Shown: positions 1,523 through 14,133 of the stretch, in pieces
Layout of the letters: each line of letters opens with the position of its first letter
Numbering within the stretch: position 1 is the stretch's first letter
Virus record (IMG/VR): IMGVR_UViG_3300047552_000112
Span: 1-20,212 of that record
DNA: 20,212 bases
From: a virus
Direction: 5' to 3' (one strand)
Translations under genes and position numbers: made by a program
Notes under the pieces: model-generated
Database searches by the model: none
Seen by the model: only the letters and a program-made list of their open reading frames with translations
What the model was told of the DNA's origin: nothing

Positions 1523-1552
1523 ATTATACCCTATTTCCTAATTAAAGTCAAG
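1523..1552 (-). promoter_or_regulatory. Sigma70-type early promoter for the 373-aa gene and rnh
   Basis: On the minus strand TTGACT and TATAAT are separated by 17 bp. The -35 is followed directly by TTAATT, giving the block TTGACTTTAATT shared with three other promoters here, and GGG precedes the -10. The dsbA stop codon TGA lies inside the -35 hexamer. Coordinates are good to about one base. Confidence 0.85.
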
Positions 1553-3333: not shown

Positions 3334-3514
3334 CTTCATCCTCGTACTGGTGATAACCAACAACTTCGCAAACGCTCTCCACCAACTGGGGTGCTTTTTC
3401 CCAACACTCATCGGATTGGTAGATAGCTTCAGGGCAAGAGATCTCTAATCTGTGAACAAATTCTTTACAAACATTCCAGAGTGCCATCAGTTCGGCATGG
3501 GTAGGTTCATTCAT
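3323..3514 (-). CDS. Conserved small hypothetical protein, 63 aa
   Basis: A helical acidic protein, MNEPTHAELMALWNVCKEFV..., with a central IS-C-P-E-A-I-Y-Q-S-D segment (residues 25-35) and an acidic tail YEDEDES. I recall the ISCPEAIYQ-type motif in short T4-like phage proteins of unknown function. The ATG overlaps the phosphatase-like gene's stop (ATGA), which supports this start and co-translation. Confidence 0.6.
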   Translation of the reverse strand: MNEPTHAELMALWNVCKEFVHRLEISCPEAIYQSDECWEKAPQLVESVCEVVGYHQYEDEDES

Positions 3515-4017
3515 ACATCACCTTCAAAATTGTCAGGGAGCCAAACACCACCGTCAGATAACCAACCACCAACGGAAGTCTTTGGCTCATCACTATCGTA
3601 AGTCAACCCAAGGGCTTTCATCATACGATGCTTCACACGTAGATTAGGTTGACGGAAACGATCAGTCGCAGTAAACCCCATCATGGTAGCAACTTCAACC
3701 ACAGCACCTGATCGGCAGATACCAGCGTGGCAATGAACAACAACGTTCATAGAGTTAGCCAAAGCATGTTGAAGCAGACGAACAATCTCATCAGCTTGTT
3801 CTTGGCTGATTTTGAAGTCATCATCGAAACCGTCTTCGTCTTCAGCATCCAAGAAGTCAAACTGGTGAACTTCTTTGAACGCAAACTTAGGGGTTGGGTG
3901 GTCTCCTGGCGGATCAGAGATTTGGATGAGCATAGAATTGGCACCACAGTCGTAGTGGGAACCATTTCTCACCGAATCACGGCTCACATTTTCAATCCAA
4001 CGAATAGTCACTTTCAA
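3511..4017 (-). CDS. Dual-specificity-type (Cys-dependent) phosphatase
   Basis: A 168-residue protein carrying the protein tyrosine/dual-specificity phosphatase P-loop VVVHCHAGICRSGAV, matching HCx5R(S/T): nucleophile C96, phosphate-binding R102, S103. Upstream acidic residues (D54-D58 region, FDFLDAEDEDGFDDD) could supply the general acid. The length suits a compact catalytic domain without extra modules. Members of this superfamily dephosphorylate proteins, RNA 5' ends, phosphoinositides or nucleotide derivatives, so the substrate cannot be told from sequence. It lies in an early operon with a MazG-like enzyme, downstream of the NAD+ genes, so a nucleotide or NAD-derived substrate is possible but is inference. 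It overlaps both neighbours. Confidence 0.82.
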   Translation of the reverse strand: MKVTIRWIENVSRDSVRNGSHYDCGANSMLIQISDPPGDHPTPKFAFKEVHQFDFLDAEDEDGFDDDFKISQEQADEIVRLLQHALANSMNVVVHCHAGICRSGAVVEVATMMGFTATDRFRQPNLRVKHRMMKALGLTYDSDEPKTSVGGWLSDGGVWLPDNFEGDV

Positions 4018-4168
4018 TCTCCATCAAGAGGGTTTTATCATATACTTCTAGCAGGTCTTCGTCTGAAATTTCTTTCAGTTCGTGTTCTGCAATCATAAAC
4101 TTTTCCATCAGTTGCTCAGGGGTGAAAGCAAACAGGATATACTCAGTCATCAATTCACGGAGGCTCAT
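3992..4168 (-). CDS. Hypothetical acidic protein, 58 aa
   Basis: A 58-codon gene, MSLRELMTEYILFAFTPEQL..., ending MEIESDYSLD. It is strongly acidic and helical, with no membrane segment. The start overlaps the MazG-like stop (ATGA) and its 3' end overlaps the phosphatase gene by 26 bp. No family recognised. Confidence 0.6.
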   Translation of the reverse strand: MSLRELMTEYILFAFTPEQLMEKFMIAEHELKEISDEDLLEVYDKTLLMEIESDYSLD

Positions 4169-4434
4169 ACAATGTTACTCCATTGAGCGAGTTTTTCACG
4201 TTTCTTTTCTGAGGCATCAATCACATTATCCCAACAGATCAAACCCTTTTCGCGCATCAGGTCAAACATACAAACCAAGTCACCGATTTCTTCTTCAAGG
4301 TGCTCACGATTAGTCTTTGGCTTTCCTGGCTTGTAGTTGTCGATACCGAAACGGTGAATCTTACTGATTGCCACAACCACTTCTGCGCATTCTTCTTGCG
4401 CAATATCCATAATCTCTACTTCAACCGAGTTCAT
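4165..4434 (-). CDS. MazG-like nucleoside triphosphate pyrophosphohydrolase
   Basis: An 89-residue all-alpha NTP-PPase of the MazG/dUTPase-2 type. It has the metal-binding pattern E15-x2-E18 (AQEECAEVV) and, after a loop, E49-x2-D52 (LEEEIGDL), as expected for EExxE...ExxD. Such enzymes hydrolyse NTPs or dNTPs to NMPs and pyrophosphate; phage MazGs have been proposed to act on dNTP pools or to lower (p)ppGpp. The start at 4434 (MNSVEVEIMD) is preferred for its 14-bp overlap with the upstream gene and a GGA about 8 nt upstream; an ATG at 4467 would add 11 residues. The single short domain is typical of phage versions. Confidence 0.78.
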   Translation of the reverse strand: MNSVEVEIMDIAQEECAEVVVAISKIHRFGIDNYKPGKPKTNREHLEEEIGDLVCMFDLMREKGLICWDNVIDASEKKREKLAQWSNIV

Positions 4435-4585
4435 TATACAATTCCAATTCTTGTTCCATTTGTTCACACGTCCAACAATAATACAACCACTCTACGAATT
4501 CCTGATACTCGTCGTCAAGTTGAGCCTGACGTTCAGCTTCGGTAGCTTCTTGCAGTTCTAAGTTGATTTCTTTTATCGTCTTCAT
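4421..4585 (-). CDS. Hypothetical acidic helical protein, 54 aa, probably leaderless
   Basis: MKTIKEINLELQEATEAERQ followed by acidic helices and a WLYYCWTCEQMEQE segment (residues about 34-47). No family recognised. The ATG at 4585 lies 6 nt downstream of a perfect TATAAT (4592-4597), so the predicted transcription start is the A of the ATG and there is no room for a Shine-Dalgarno. The in-frame TTG at 4603 would lie upstream of the transcript start. The 3' end overlaps the MazG-like gene. Confidence 0.62.
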   Translation of the reverse strand: MKTIKEINLELQEATEAERQAQLDDEYQEFVEWLYYCWTCEQMEQELELYNELG

Positions 4586-4591
4586 ATAATG

Positions 4592-4620
4592 ATTATACCC
4601 CAAGACTTAATTAAAGTCAA
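4592..4620 (-). promoter_or_regulatory. Sigma70-type early promoter, start site on the ATG at 4585
   Basis: TTGACT (4615-4620), 17-bp spacer, TATAAT (4592-4597). It carries the shared block TTGACTTTAATT and GGGG before the -10. It serves the small-gene operon that includes the MazG-like and phosphatase-like genes. Confidence 0.87.
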
Positions 4621-4644: not shown

Positions 4645-6045
4645 TTACTTGTTAGAGTTGGCTCGGACTTCCTCGAAGGTGTAATCCTTGCTCAAGTTAC
4701 CATTCCAGTAGACTGGCACCAGAGCATTAGACCAACCACCGATACCTTTATCAGACCAACCAGTTGGAGCAGTTACGCCAGAAGCGAACTCACCACCAGA
4801 GTTAGTCCAAAGGGTAACACGACCAGCTTTAGACTTCTTACCAGCGTCAGTGATAGGATCTTTCTGAACGTCAACCCAAGTACCATTGATCAATGCAGCC
4901 GAACACTTCATAGCGAATCGTTGTGTGTCTCGATCAATTTGTTGGAGCAAGGCACCGCCCATACCGAATGCAATATTGTCTGCTGACCATCCCATTGCAG
5001 TGAGTGCCCCAAGGATAGAGCGGATGGACAACTCATTGACACCGTCCCCTTGGATGAGGCGAACGTTATTGAGGACTTTGAATCCTTTTGCGTTTGTAGT
5101 GTATCCAAACTTTGCTCCTAAAATCTCAATCAACTTCATATTAACTTCAACAGGATCACCAGAGTCGGGTCGGATAACCACTGTCGCACCAGAGGCGATA
5201 ACCTCTTCCTTGAGTTCTTCACCCCAGAGTTTGCTTGCTGCATTAAAGATGTCATATGAGTCACTCACAACTGCCAAGATAGAACCTTCACGACCGAATT
5301 GCTTCAGCATGTTACGGTATGCTTCTACTTCACCTGCACGACCCCAGCTGGTAATGGTGCTGTGTTCTGCGGCTGGAATTGAGAAACCTGCAACACCAGC
5401 GCTGTAATACTCACGAGCATAAAGGACACCAGTGATAGTGTCACTACCCATAAAATTAACCAAGTGCGCTGCGCCACCAATCCCCGCAGATTCCATACTT
5501 GAAACACCACGGGCACCGAAATCATGCAACTTAAAATCAATACCAGCAGGGTCACCAGTCTTCTCCAAATATTCTTTGATAATGTTTTTGATAGTTTTGG
5601 ACTGAGTGGCCACAGTGGTAGGATACCAAACTGCACGAAGCAAGGCAGTCTCAAGCCAAGTTGTCAACCAGAAACATTCTGGGTCTGTGTTCTCGATAGT
5701 CGCCAGTACATTTTTGACAGGCACCACAGTGCCTTCAGGTACAGCACGAATGACCAAAGGTAAGAAACCTTGGTGCTGATCAAGGATGTATTGCCACGCT
5801 TCACGATTAAATGGTTCACCGTGGGCTGTAAGAATTTCATCTGCAACATCAATGTCGGCTTGGGTAATTGGCTCAAGCAGATACTCCTTAATGAATGCTT
5901 GTAAACCGAAGAACAGGGTTTGATCGTAGCGACCACCACGTGATTCGATGTAAGAGTAGATGCCAGTTGTACCAGCGGGATATTGTTTCATCATGCTGAC
6001 TTTGTAGCTGTCAGTGTTGAGGATGATGTTTTTAGCGAGTTTCAT
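4645..6045 (-). CDS. nadV: Nicotinamide phosphoribosyltransferase
   Basis: A full-length (466 aa) NAMPT/NadV enzyme: nicotinamide + PRPP gives nicotinamide mononucleotide. Diagnostic motifs are NTDSYKVSM at the N-terminus (10-18), HDFGARGVSS (174-183), GSDT with D202 (equivalent to human NAMPT D219, which selects the amide over nicotinic acid), AAEHST with H228 (human H247), VSDSYDIFNA (260-269), and IRPDSGDP with R292 (human R311, PRPP/phosphate binding). The next phage gene upstream makes NAD+ from NMN, so the two form a complete two-step salvage route. It has its own promoter and an AAGGAG site 6 nt before ATG 6045. No sign of truncation or lost catalytic residues. Confidence 0.96.
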   Translation of the reverse strand: MKLAKNIILNTDSYKVSMMKQYPAGTTGIYSYIESRGGRYDQTLFFGLQAFIKEYLLEPITQADIDVADEILTAHGEPFNREAWQYILDQHQGFLPLVIRAVPEGTVVPVKNVLATIENTDPECFWLTTWLETALLRAVWYPTTVATQSKTIKNIIKEYLEKTGDPAGIDFKLHDFGARGVSSMESAGIGGAAHLVNFMGSDTITGVLYAREYYSAGVAGFSIPAAEHSTITSWGRAGEVEAYRNMLKQFGREGSILAVVSDSYDIFNAASKLWGEELKEEVIASGATVVIRPDSGDPVEVNMKLIEILGAKFGYTTNAKGFKVLNNVRLIQGDGVNELSIRSILGALTAMGWSADNIAFGMGGALLQQIDRDTQRFAMKCSAALINGTWVDVQKDPITDAGKKSKAGRVTLWTNSGGEFASGVTAPTGWSDKGIGGWSNALVPVYWNGNLSKDYTFEEVRANSNK

Positions 6046-6074
6046 AGTAAGCTCCTTACTTGTTTCTATACTTA

Positions 6075-6103
6075 ATTATACCTGATCTTTGAATTAAAGT
6101 CAA
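6075..6103 (-). promoter_or_regulatory. Sigma70-type early promoter for nadV
   Basis: TTGACT (6098-6103), 17-bp spacer, TATAAT (6075-6080). It shares the TTGACTTTAATT block and GG before the -10, and an A-tract precedes the -35 as in the 1,523-1,552 promoter. The stop codon of the upstream NadM gene lies inside the -35. Confidence 0.87.
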
Positions 6104-7077
6104 GCGTTTTTTGCGAAGGCTGGAATCGGCATAACTCCAGTGACTTTCGATACGATGTCCTTGTGGTCGTCGTACATCTCGATGTTGTTCAGTGCGTCGG
6201 TTAGTGGCACCCACTTACACAGAGCAGCATCGTCAGCACCATTGGCACGTGGCAGAGACCAGTCAGGGTTTGGACTGATACGCATATACACAGCCATGGT
6301 GTTGCGGGGAATACCGAACGAACGACTTGGGTCGTCAAACAATTCGGTCTTTACGATAGAGCCACGGAGAACTTTCTCTGGGACTCGCACGTTTGTTTCT
6401 TCAATCAACTCTCGGATTGCACAATCGAGAAATGTTTCACGCTGATTGCGAAAACCTCCTGGAAGTGCCCACGCACCTTTTCCTGGGGAGAACTTGCGTT
6501 GGATAAGCAAGATGTGACCTTGGCATTCAAGGATAGCATCGGAGCAGTTGAAGTTAAGGGTTTCTGGGAATGGATACCCAGCGAATAAGTCTTTTTCTTT
6601 GTCATAAAATGCACGATCGCCACGTACAGTCTCAGGCATGAGCGGATCATTTTCTGCAAACATACGAGTGCGAATCTCTGTTGCGTTTACCGAGTACTGA
6701 GCCTCGATAGATTTAAATTTGAGTTCAGGGAACCACTTGAGATAGTCGTTACCATCTTTCATGTGACCGAACAGGATCGGTGTACCCATTTCAAAATGTT
6801 CGATAGTAGCACGTACATCGGACATCCATTGGGTGTTTGAATAGCGATAATCGTTGAGTGGGATGATTTCGTAGTTGGTGATGCGTTGAGCATGCAACTT
6901 AACTTGGAGCATTTGTTTGCGTTCAGCAAACGTCCAAGGGTTACGGATAGAACGGCATTGATTAGCCGAACCAACTAGAATGTACAGTTTCTGTACTTGG
7001 GATGCAGCCACTCCAAGAGCGTGGATGTGACCTTCGTGAACGGGCTGGAATCGCCCAATAAAAATACCAGTTTTCAT
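6100..7077 (-). CDS. nadM: Bifunctional NMN adenylyltransferase / Nudix hydrolase (NadM-Nudix type)
   Basis: A two-domain protein of 325 residues from ATG 7077, chosen because GGAGATAAGAAAATG gives a proper ribosome-binding site. The N-terminal nucleotidyltransferase domain has GRFQPVHEGH (8-17, with the HxGH motif) and VNATEIR near 130-136 (ISSTxIR-like), and joins NMN to ATP to make NAD+. The C-terminal Nudix domain has a Nudix box at 208-230 (G-x5-E-x7-REL-x-EE), with the usual final Gly replaced by Asn. Fused enzymes of this kind in Synechocystis and Francisella hydrolyse ADP-ribose with the Nudix part. Paired with NadV, the phage can turn nicotinamide into NAD+ and possibly clear ADP-ribose left by NADases. 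Confidence 0.94.
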   Translation of the reverse strand: MKTGIFIGRFQPVHEGHIHALGVAASQVQKLYILVGSANQCRSIRNPWTFAERKQMLQVKLHAQRITNYEIIPLNDYRYSNTQWMSDVRATIEHFEMGTPILFGHMKDGNDYLKWFPELKFKSIEAQYSVNATEIRTRMFAENDPLMPETVRGDRAFYDKEKDLFAGYPFPETLNFNCSDAILECQGHILLIQRKFSPGKGAWALPGGFRNQRETFLDCAIRELIEETNVRVPEKVLRGSIVKTELFDDPSRSFGIPRNTMAVYMRISPNPDWSLPRANGADDAALCKWVPLTDALNNIEMYDDHKDIVSKVTGVMPIPAFAKNA

Positions 7078-7123
7078 TTTCTTATCTCCTAAGAATACAT
7101 ACAAGCAGACTACCTGCTCATTT

Positions 7124-7615
7124 CTATTTAGCCAACTTTGCCTTGGCGCATACCTCTAATTTGTCAAAAAATTCCAAGCGACCTTTGATCTCCATGTAGA
7201 AGGCTTGGTACTTAGCAATTCGGGCAATGTCCTTTTCAGTCACACCCTTCAGTCGACGGATGTCAGTGTTGTGTCGCAAGTCAGCCATCTTAACACGCAT
7301 TGCATCGTAGCTAGAGAACACACCAGTCTTGTACTCTTCGTAAGTCTGTCCACGTTGCTTTGTCAAGCACTTCAAACCTTCAATCACCCGCTCAGAGATA
7401 CCAGCGTCACGTAGATCTTGGTAAGTCACGTCAGTGTCTTCAATCACGTCATGACCCAGAGCCATACACATCAGTTCTTCGTCGTCAGACTTCAGGTAGT
7501 GCATCACTTTCAGTGGATGTAGGATATAAGGGTTTCCACCTTTGTCAAACTGACCGTGGTGGGCATTTACTGCAATATGCAGCATTTTGTCGAGCATTTC
7601 ACCTTTTTTCATCAT
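7124..7615 (-). CDS. SpoT/MESH1-like HD-domain hydrolase
   Basis: A 163-residue single HD domain of the RelA/SpoT hydrolase class: NAHHGQF (H19), YILHPLKV (H33), GHDVIEDTD with the HD pair H55-D56 and the E59-D60 motif, and KMADLRHNTD near residue 110, which supplies the fourth metal ligand. Stand-alone enzymes of this type (small alarmone hydrolases, MESH1) remove pyrophosphate from (p)ppGpp; human MESH1 also dephosphorylates NADPH to NADH. No synthetase domain is present, so only hydrolysis is expected. It is the first gene of the leftward run, with two sigma70-like promoters in tandem and AAGGGA before tandem ATGs at 7615 and 7612. Either a stringent-response or an NADP(H)-directed role would fit the NAD genes downstream. 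Confidence 0.87.
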   Translation of the reverse strand: MMKKGEMLDKMLHIAVNAHHGQFDKGGNPYILHPLKVMHYLKSDDEELMCMALGHDVIEDTDVTYQDLRDAGISERVIEGLKCLTKQRGQTYEEYKTGVFSSYDAMRVKMADLRHNTDIRRLKGVTEKDIARIAKYQAFYMEIKGRLEFFDKLEVCAKAKLAK

Positions 7616-7638: not shown

Positions 7639-7667
7639 ATTATACCATAGTTCTGAATTAAAGTAAA
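7639..7667 (-). promoter_or_regulatory. Proximal sigma70-type early promoter of the leftward operon
   Basis: TTTACT (7662-7667), 17-bp spacer, TATAAT (7639-7644), with the shared TTTACTTTAATT block and GG before the -10. It lies 23 bp upstream of the HD-hydrolase start. Confidence 0.83.
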
Positions 7668-12518: not shown

Positions 12519-13711
12519 TTTTTATTCAACTTTTCAATATCGTCTTCGATAGTACCAACCTTGTTTAAGAAGGATTGTACTTTACGTTTCTTTTCTTGTT
12601 CCAACAGTTCTGATTCGTATCTACCCATTTCTTTTTCGGTAGATTTAACACCAACTCTGCTGTAAAGTTCTGGTTCCCAGTCTTTCTTGACCTCAACCTC
12701 AACATGATCATCAAATAATAGATCGTCCTCAGTTTCTAAAACTTTAGGGCTTTCTTCACCTTTAATCTCTAACGTGCCTTCTTCTATACCTTTTTTGACG
12801 GCTTCCTGTAATTCAGGGAAATCGCTTATTGGGCGAGGCTCCGTTAGATTTAACTCTTTGTTCTTATCAAAGAACTCTTGAAGAGGGTGAGGTGCAAGTT
12901 CTTCTGGAGTTGGTTTTTCGCCAACATCAGCAACCCATGCATCAGGTTTATATTCTTCACCCTTTTCCTTTTTCATCTGCCAGTTAGCAGCAATCAGTAA
13001 TAGAACGGCTAGTGGATCAAACACTAGCACGATCATCATGATTACAATTCGGACGGCTTTTTCGAGTATCTCTTCGCTGGCGCTTTCTTCGTAGATGAGC
13101 GCTGCGATGTATTTGATTGGTCCGACTTCGGCTTCGACTTTACGGACTTCGGCTGCGATTGGGGCACGTTCTTCGTTGTATTTTGCGACTTGGGTTTGCG
13201 CTGCGCCGATCTCTGAGAGGAGCCTTGTTCTTTCTTTCTGCTGGGCTCTGCGGATGGCAACGGCTCGGTCTGCACCGTTGGCGTCTGTGGTTCTTGAGAT
13301 GGTTTGATCAACTTGTTGATCCAGTTGAGAAATTTGCTTACGAGCTGCATCTATATTTTCCTTTTCAGTTTTAATTTTTTCATCTATCAGAGATAACTTA
13401 GCTGCAACGTCGCCAGTTGGGACTGCTTGGTCTAGGTGAGCTTTAGACAGATAACCAAAGATACCCATTGACGTTAGCATCATTAAGACTACTAAAGCAA
13501 CGGTAAAGTAGCCCATCATTAGTTTTGGAATCTCTTTCCAGCTGCGATACAGCCAAGAAGCCACAACTAATTTGGACACTTCAAGTAGAGAACCCATGAT
13601 GAAAATTGGAATTGCGGCTGCAGCAAAGATCGCCACTAGACCCATGATTGAGTAGTAAGCTGCCACTGCGGATAAACCCAGTGCTGTTCCGAATAGTAAA
13701 TATGCCATCAT
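12515..13711 (-). CDS. Multi-pass membrane protein with periplasmic/cytoplasmic coiled coil, 398 aa
   Basis: Hydrophobic segments lie at about residues 4-42 (probably two helices), 67-88 and 220-243, giving about four membrane passes. Between the third and fourth is a long charged coiled coil (about 103-200, with IDEKIKTEKENID and QLDQQVDQ). After the last helix come about 150 residues of acidic, disordered-looking tail ending in another helix (VGTIEDDIEKLNKK). I recall proteins of this layout in marine T4-like phages without known function. A large coiled coil between membrane helices suggests a scaffold or a sensor spanning the inner membrane. Tandem ATGs overlap the upstream stop. It sits with exported proteins in a late operon. 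Confidence 0.78.
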   Translation of the reverse strand: MMAYLLFGTALGLSAVAAYYSIMGLVAIFAAAAIPIFIMGSLLEVSKLVVASWLYRSWKEIPKLMMGYFTVALVVLMMLTSMGIFGYLSKAHLDQAVPTGDVAAKLSLIDEKIKTEKENIDAARKQISQLDQQVDQTISRTTDANGADRAVAIRRAQQKERTRLLSEIGAAQTQVAKYNEERAPIAAEVRKVEAEVGPIKYIAALIYEESASEEILEKAVRIVIMMIVLVFDPLAVLLLIAANWQMKKEKGEEYKPDAWVADVGEKPTPEELAPHPLQEFFDKNKELNLTEPRPISDFPELQEAVKKGIEEGTLEIKGEESPKVLETEDDLLFDDHVEVEVKKDWEPELYSRVGVKSTEKEMGRYESELLEQEKKRKVQSFLNKVGTIEDDIEKLNKK

Positions 13712-14133
13712 AGTTTATTTAAGATATGAGAACCATGAACACGAACGCTAATCTGTCCGTTGTAATAATCCGTGGTTTCCAACACTCTCCTTGTAAATTG
13801 TTCGCGAGCCTCAACGTAAGAACATTCAGCTTTTGATTTACAGAAAAACAAAATCTCCCTGCGGAAGTTATCCTTCCCAAGGAGCTCTACATCTTTATTT
13901 AGTTCTATGCTAGAGCCATAGTAGTCTAGCCAATCAGAGTCTATTTTTGACTTGATCTTCTTTTTCTTTTTAGTGCCGTTCTTTAAAGTGACGGTCTTAT
14001 AAGAAGTCTTGCTGAACTTAGCAAGTTTCTTACCAATATATTTGCGATCGCTGGTGAGGTTTGTGATTAAGTATACAAACCCCACGCAGTCTTCTGGTAA
14101 TTCAGTAATCTGTTCGTTATTATAAAGCCACAT
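13708..14133 (-). CDS. GIY-YIG-like endonuclease
   Basis: A 141-residue protein with a degenerate GIY-YIG core: GFVYLITN (residues 18-25, in place of GIY), RKYIGKK (30-36, YIG), a basic insert TLKNGTKKKKKIKSK (49-63), DWLDYYGSS (68-75), NFRREILFFCKS with candidate catalytic Arg (R91/R92), and SYVEAREQF with a candidate metal-binding Glu (E109). I recall close relatives throughout T4-like phages. It may act as a recombination or repair nuclease or derive from a homing endonuclease. The late promoter lies just upstream and no Shine-Dalgarno is visible before the ATG; the leader can fold into a hairpin. Confidence 0.72.
   Translation of the reverse strand: MWLYNNEQITELPEDCVGFVYLITNLTSDRKYIGKKLAKFSKTSYKTVTLKNGTKKKKKIKSKIDSDWLDYYGSSIELNKDVELLGKDNFRREILFFCKSKAECSYVEAREQFTRRVLETTDYYNGQISVRVHGSHILNKL

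Follow-up and report, generated by a model that had tools for sequence, protein, structure and literature searches.

A predicted Aph1-type alarmone hydrolase gene in first position of a NARP2-type NAD+ locus from a viral genome record

The HD-NatV-NadV locus and its promoters

The viral record IMGVR_UViG_3300047552_000112 carries three consecutive genes for a predicted HD-domain hydrolase (HD) and two enzymes of NAD+ synthesis, NatV and NadV. The analysed window is the whole stretch of 20,212 bases. All three genes lie on the minus strand in the reading order HD (7615–7124, 163 amino acids), NatV (7077–6100, 325 amino acids) and NadV (6045–4645, 466 amino acids). The intergenic gaps are 46 bases between HD and NatV and 54 bases between NatV and NadV. 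These open reading frames (ORFs), already recognised in a first-pass annotation made from the sequence, are intact and have family matches far above chance. HD is a predicted adenosine 3'-pyrophosphohydrolase of the Aph1-type small alarmone hydrolases (SAHs). NatV (NadM-Nudix) is annotated as a bifunctional nicotinamide mononucleotide (NMN) adenylyltransferase (NMNAT)/Nudix hydrolase and NadV as a nicotinamide phosphoribosyltransferase of the Nampt type. A megablast search of the whole window against the phage collection gave no match.

A sigma-70-type promoter (TTTACT-17-TATAAT; 7639–7667, minus strand) lies about 24 bases ahead of the HD ATG. A second one (TTGACT-17-TATAAT; 6075–6103, minus strand) precedes NadV, its −35 element overlapping the NatV stop codon. 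The extended form, TTKACTTTAATT-N9-GGTATAAT, has four minus-strand copies in the window (7667, 6103, 4620 and 1551) versus none in 100 shuffles. The third copy (4592–4620, minus strand) is located downstream of NadV, ahead of a 54-amino-acid ORF and a MazG-like gene, and the fourth (1523–1551, minus strand) ahead of the gene at 374–1495. NatV has no promoter of this type of its own, and the layout reads as two transcription units, HD-NatV and NadV. The extended motif is also present upstream of HD and NadV in the related loci L084, L116 and L110. Judged by their nearness to the consensus, the promoters that lead the module can be called strong, as had been proposed; from this strength and the host-type consensus, transcription may be early.

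The NAD+ synthesis pair

NadV matched phrog_448 (E 3.5e-163) and NAPRTase (E 3.6e-62). Among solved structures, the Xanthomonas Nampt 7yqo scored best (E 6.5e-177), followed by human-type Nampt (about 1e-131); three further chains deposited as Nampt were weaker (3e-76 to 4e-65). The motifs AEHSTITSWG, RPDSGDP and GSD aligned with the active-site residues of the human-type enzyme. NadV is assigned to the Nampt and not to the Namat type from these overall matches rather than residue by residue on the Namat clamp.

For NatV, an ATG preceded by an AGGAG site gives the protein of 325 amino acids; the alternative listed start, a TTG at 7104, is less likely. The protein matched phrog_395 (E 1.6e-60), Pfam NUDIX (8e-17) and Pfam CTP_transf_like (1e-10). 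Matches to the bifunctional enzymes 2qjo (E 7.5e-47) and 2qjt (E 1.6e-46) extend across both domains. The motifs GRFQPVHEGH and NATEIRTR and an intact Nudix box, GFRNQRETFLDCAIRELIEETNV, are present. By homology, the enzyme identities of NadV and NatV, and likewise of HD (see below), are well supported. So is the earlier proposal that NadV and NatV form a NARP2-type pair with a complete predicted route from nicotinamide via NMN to NAD+. As in NARP2, Nampt and NMNAT are both present, adjacent and on one strand; the window differs in the additional hydrolase gene in first position. No ADP-ribose pyrophosphate synthetase-like gene was seen among the genes checked.

Phages of the KVP40 group have been described as carrying NARP2 (PMC12028318). 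KVP40 shares the NatV architecture (40.8% identity) and NadV (47.1%) with the window, but its two genes are about 43 kb apart. Acidovorax phage ACP17 has the same NatV-NadV order (49.5% and 58.1% identity, respectively). Its SAH, in contrast to the window, is not beside the pair: a diverged SAH is located about 25 kb off.

The Nudix fusion had been singled out as unusual company for the adenylyltransferase. It is the standard phage architecture: tblastn matched NatV in 455 phage records, and in 419 of these, including the NatV of KVP40, the two-domain NatV was covered to at least 80%. Moreover, the NMNAT-Nudix fusion is described as the architecture of phage NadM (PMC9503650). Together with the 2qjo and 2qjt matches, this rules out a special status of the fusion. 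All NadM phages surveyed in that study also carry NadV. A removal of ADP-ribose signals by the Nudix domain is unproven, and the same study describes regulation of NAD+ through cleavage of NAD+ by the NadM Nudix domain (PMC9503650). From the sequence, the substrate may be ADP-ribose signals, free ADP-ribose or NAD+. Within NatV, the Nudix domain is consistently better conserved than the NMNAT domain (for example, 98% versus 78% in L094 and 93% versus 73% in L100), which suggests a stronger constraint on the Nudix part.

HD is closest to Aph1

HD belongs to phrog_990 (E 1.7e-61). The Pfam HD_4 match stayed below the cut-off (21.3 versus 27.2 bits). In a phmmer search of solved chains, 7smg ranked first (E 2.5e-26). 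Long RelA/SpoT homologue (RSH) enzymes followed at 5.5e-13 and weaker, and MESH1 reached 3.9e-5. A profile search also retrieved 7smg (E 9.4e-31). 7smg is Aph1, the (p)ppApp hydrolase of Bacteroides caccae and immunity partner of Apk2 MuF toxins. The AlphaFold model of HD had a pLDDT of 92.4, and Foldseek ranks 1 to 4 were all 7smg. The superimposed structures of the model and 7smg agreed with a VIA Z of 22.1 and a root-mean-square deviation of 1.1 across 142 residues, at 36–37% identity. The Z score was 17.8 for the Pseudomonas SAH (PaSAH) and 16.0–17.3 for MESH1, at 23–25% identity. MESH1 is not the closest relative of HD: in both sequence and fold comparisons, 3nr1, 5vxa and 9chy scored far below 7smg.

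The metal-binding and catalytic residues H33, H55-D56, E59-D60 and D112 are invariant in an alignment of 12 sequences. The position of RelSeq Arg44 (QVRKSG) is occupied by an aspartate (QxDKxG) in the window HD, 7smg, gp220 of phage PVP-SE1 and the aligned cellular relatives. Aspartate was found at this position in all 80 phage loci. The motif DLxxNxDIxRL is common to the window HD and 7smg, nearly so to the HD relative of locus L140, and is absent from RelSeq. HD thus shares with Aph1 all catalytic residues, the aspartate at the Arg44 position and a close fold. Unlike Aph1, it has no adjacent toxin gene and is carried by a phage with NAD salvage genes. By profile, predicted fold and candidate signature residues, HD is a small alarmone hydrolase of the Aph1 and not of the MESH1 kind. 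Of the first-pass description as a SpoT/MESH1-like enzyme, the stand-alone alarmone-type HD hydrolase stands; the likeness to MESH1 does not.

NADPH, also named earlier as a substrate of HD, is not the best reading with a (p)ppApp hydrolase as the nearest solved relative. A MESH1-like NADPH phosphatase supplying NADH/NAD+ pools would account for the NAD genes beside HD, and XccSAH of the Mesh1-L group weakly dephosphorylates NADPH (PMC9765508). The distance to MESH1 argues against it. In addition, SAHMex is limited to (p)ppApp and does not hydrolyse NADPH, and MESH1 itself is slow on NADPH (PMC7644958). We consider this function of HD very improbable.

A (p)ppGpp hydrolase that dampens the stringent response is a less remote but still unlikely alternative. 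The HD and ED motifs of RSH enzymes are intact in the window HD, which also matches TIGR00691 spoT_relA (E 9.5e-16). Relatives in several phages are annotated as guanosine bisphosphate 3'-pyrophosphohydrolase. The closer relationship to Aph1 than to RSH enzymes or MESH1 and the family-wide replacement of Arg44 by aspartate speak against this function, and SAHs may be specific for (p)ppApp, as is SAHMex. An Aph1-type enzyme remains the preferred identity of HD.

HD matched 361 phage records. Between the window and L001, HD differs at 3 first, 2 second and 47 third codon positions. With the third position so dominant, HD is under strong purifying selection. One phage has, in addition to an intact HD, a degenerate paralogue (L058:2087-2494; 39% identity). 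Its HDxxED motif reads HELLNKT, and it is probably not an enzyme.

Exchange at the HD position

The window and L084 are mostly 97–100% identical on both flanks of HD, and between 7045 and 7645 the binned identity drops to 65–78%. A second, milder dip to 82–83% occurs inside NadV near 4945–5245. On the protein level, the HDs share 71–73% and the NatV domains 99–100%. The comparison with L001 is reversed: HD is close (94–95%) and the NMNAT domain is far (78%). These two patterns indicate that HD was exchanged as a unit. Judged by them and by the small ORF found in its stead in relatives, HD is an optional, exchangeable cassette.

In 8 loci, the position upstream of NatV holds a conserved ORF of 64 amino acids (MAEVKLNGLYKVEVTEYERGWGQ...) instead of HD; 13 distinct contigs have HD there, with duplicates removed by contig name. 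The ORF is located at about 9800–9990 in L085 and upstream of NatV in L087, L089–L092, L118 and L123. It is a possible alternative cargo. The four near-identical promoters of the window are repeats at gene boundaries. They may serve as recombination sites for the exchange of the HD cassette.

Phage relatives and toxins

Gp220 of PVP-SE1 is a homologous SAH with 50–55% identity to the window HD (54.5% in the tblastn segment, 50% over the alignment). It adjoins a gene labelled thymidylate kinase, not NAD genes. Our searches detected it as the sole SAH in the PVP-SE1 genome. The 3'-CCA end of a tRNA terminates in adenosine A76. At this end the toxSAS mark is located, and PaSpo of phage SSU5, another phage SAH, takes the mark off tRNA (PMC11559606). 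The SAH of PVP-SE1 neutralises the toxSAS toxin FaRel, according to work cited in PMC7644958. With the mark on adenosine A76, an adenosine 3'-pyrophosphohydrolase is chemically suitable for its removal, and the window HD may act on tRNA.

In a prophage of Enterococcus sp. BWR-S5 (L140), an HD relative with 44% identity lies directly behind a MuF protein. The C-terminus of the latter (L140:3322-4761) weakly matches the alarmone synthetases SaSAS (5e-8) and Tas1 (9e-5). The MuF-HD order corresponds to the published apk2-aph1 layout (PMC12226406), and the two genes are probably a toxin-immunity pair of the Apk2 type. A pairing of bacterial HD homologues with synthetase toxins as a rule was rejected: no synthetase was noticed among the Clostridia neighbourhoods listed, and only L140 shows one, by weak matches.

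Association of HD with NAD genes in phages

In the large records that have both, HD and the NAD pair are closer than by random placement. A rough Fisher test over 8 records gave p 2e-6, a value that overstates the association: the records are related, accessory genes cluster and gene placement in phages is not random. In L019 and L062, no more than 300 bases separate HD from a divergent NatV (NMNAT domain 28–35%), after which NadV comes next. A Klebsiella phage annotation that places NadV over HD (K23PH08C2) was discarded; HD is on the opposite strand, and the sister phage KpS8 has a normal gene.

The recurrence of the gene order hydrolase-NatV-NadV, in L019 and L062 and in a Mesorhizobium phage, is better evidence for a coupling than the Fisher test. 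Mesorhizobium phage Cp1R7A-A1 has the three genes in the order and on the strand seen in the window, with similarly tight gaps of 88 and 2 bases. The hydrolase (L155:3355-3912), however, belongs to another SAH subfamily. It is CG11900/RSH-like, with CG11900 as its best solved relative, and barely alignable with the window HD (26% across 87 residues, E 0.01); it has neither the R-K nor the D-K motif. This case is one isolate, a chance find outside any counted sample. A scan for sequences related to the Mesorhizobium NatV gave a single locus, in which neither HD nor a Mesorhizobium-type hydrolase was detected.

Pseudomonas phage Adele combines NARP1, a small alarmone hydrolase and MazG (PMC12846349). 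It resembles the window in having NAD+ reconstitution, an SAH and MazG in one genome. It differs in that the system is NARP1, not NARP2, and that the genes (022/024 and 032) are not contiguous. No report of the contiguous order hydrolase-NatV-NadV with NARP2 was found in the open-licence papers searched. The module looks functional and is a new combination of known parts; the idea is, given Adele, not wholly new.

Neighbouring genes

The MazG-like nucleotide pyrophosphohydrolase (4165–4467, minus strand; Pfam MazG E 1e-4, phrog_4856 E 1.3e-21) is a neighbour in its own promoter unit. It is followed by a gene for a dual-specificity-phosphatase-like protein (3511–4017, minus strand; Pfam Tc-R-P E 9.3e-8). 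Relatives of the latter are near HD in 24 of 81 HD loci, including L040, L047, L048, L050 and L002–L007, and frequently are the immediate neighbour. A SegE-type GIY-YIG protein at 13708–14133 (Pfam PF19835 E 3e-32) was placed in phrog_447; the 'NAD synthetase' label of that family looks wrong. PADLOC gave two weak matches in the window, a Nudix-like one to PDC-S07 (7.4e-7) and one of the 374–1495 gene to Drt3a (0.003).

Proposed role

We consider it fairly probable that the locus is a NARP2-type module with an exchangeable first-position cassette for an Aph1-type adenosine 3'-pyrophosphohydrolase, used in counter-defence. A joint anti-defence role of HD and the NAD pair is plausible. During infection, the promoter at 7667 would drive both HD and NatV, and a separate one at 6103 would drive NadV. 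NadV would form NMN from nicotinamide and phosphoribosyl pyrophosphate, and NatV would form NAD+ from NMN and ATP. Together they would replenish NAD+ after its cleavage to nicotinamide by NADase effectors. HD would strip the 3'-pyrophosphate from the adenosine of free (p)ppApp produced by toxic synthetases. Another probable target would be tRNA whose 3'-terminal A76 carries a pyrophosphate added by CapRel/FaRel2-like toxSAS immunity toxins. The action of HD would restore ATP pools or translation.

Several points weigh against this proposal. The full NatV-NadV pair was present in 6 and missing in 10 of 16 large records selected for HD. HD was present in one of seven large records selected for NatV and missing in the other six. 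This separable occurrence rules out HD as a constant member of the module. SAHs of the Mesorhizobium kind had no NAD neighbours in Rhizobium, Vibrio and Nodularia phages, which refutes a general location beside NAD genes; in the Vibrio phage, about 1 kb lies between the SAH and an ADP-ribose pyrophosphatase. The predicted (p)ppApp specificity of HD is drawn from relatedness and one substitution. Gp220 is presumably the PVP-SE1 SAH of the published FaRel test, as the only candidate. For HD, NatV and NadV alike, we infer catalytic activities, substrates, timing and counter-defence role.

The NAD pair may instead be metabolic, providing more NAD+ for replication and nucleotide synthesis in the infection by a large phage, with HD as an unrelated neighbour in an accessory region. 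The window encodes both ribonucleotide reductase subunits, ThyX and a primase-like gene. The Nampt of phage phiSt2 is transcribed nearly immediately after infection, which its authors interpreted metabolically (PMC5107563). The frequent separation of HD and NAD pair in large records also fits this explanation. It is opposed by the proximity of HD and NAD pair beyond random, within the stated limits of that test, and by the identical gene order with another hydrolase subfamily in Cp1R7A-A1. Furthermore, the counter-defence function of NARP2 is established. A purely metabolic role is possible, and we give it limited credence.

An extension of the counter-defence proposal is tentative. Phages may repeatedly build a two-pronged operon from NatV-NadV and a 3'-pyrophosphate eraser for (p)ppApp or toxSAS-marked tRNA. 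The eraser slot would be swapped among alleles and subfamilies following the immune toxins of the host. Since adenylate cofactors would be depleted by either type of defence, the two arms would work together, with the eraser returning the ADP/ATP needed by NatV. If true, one operon would counter both NAD+ depletion and adenosine or tRNA pyrophosphorylation, which are unrelated chemistries of abortive infection. The hydrolase-NatV-NadV order with differing hydrolase families makes this coupling directly testable using the three genes. Many phage 'metal-dependent phosphohydrolases', represented by the phage records matching HD, would then have a physiological role as counter-defence enzymes.

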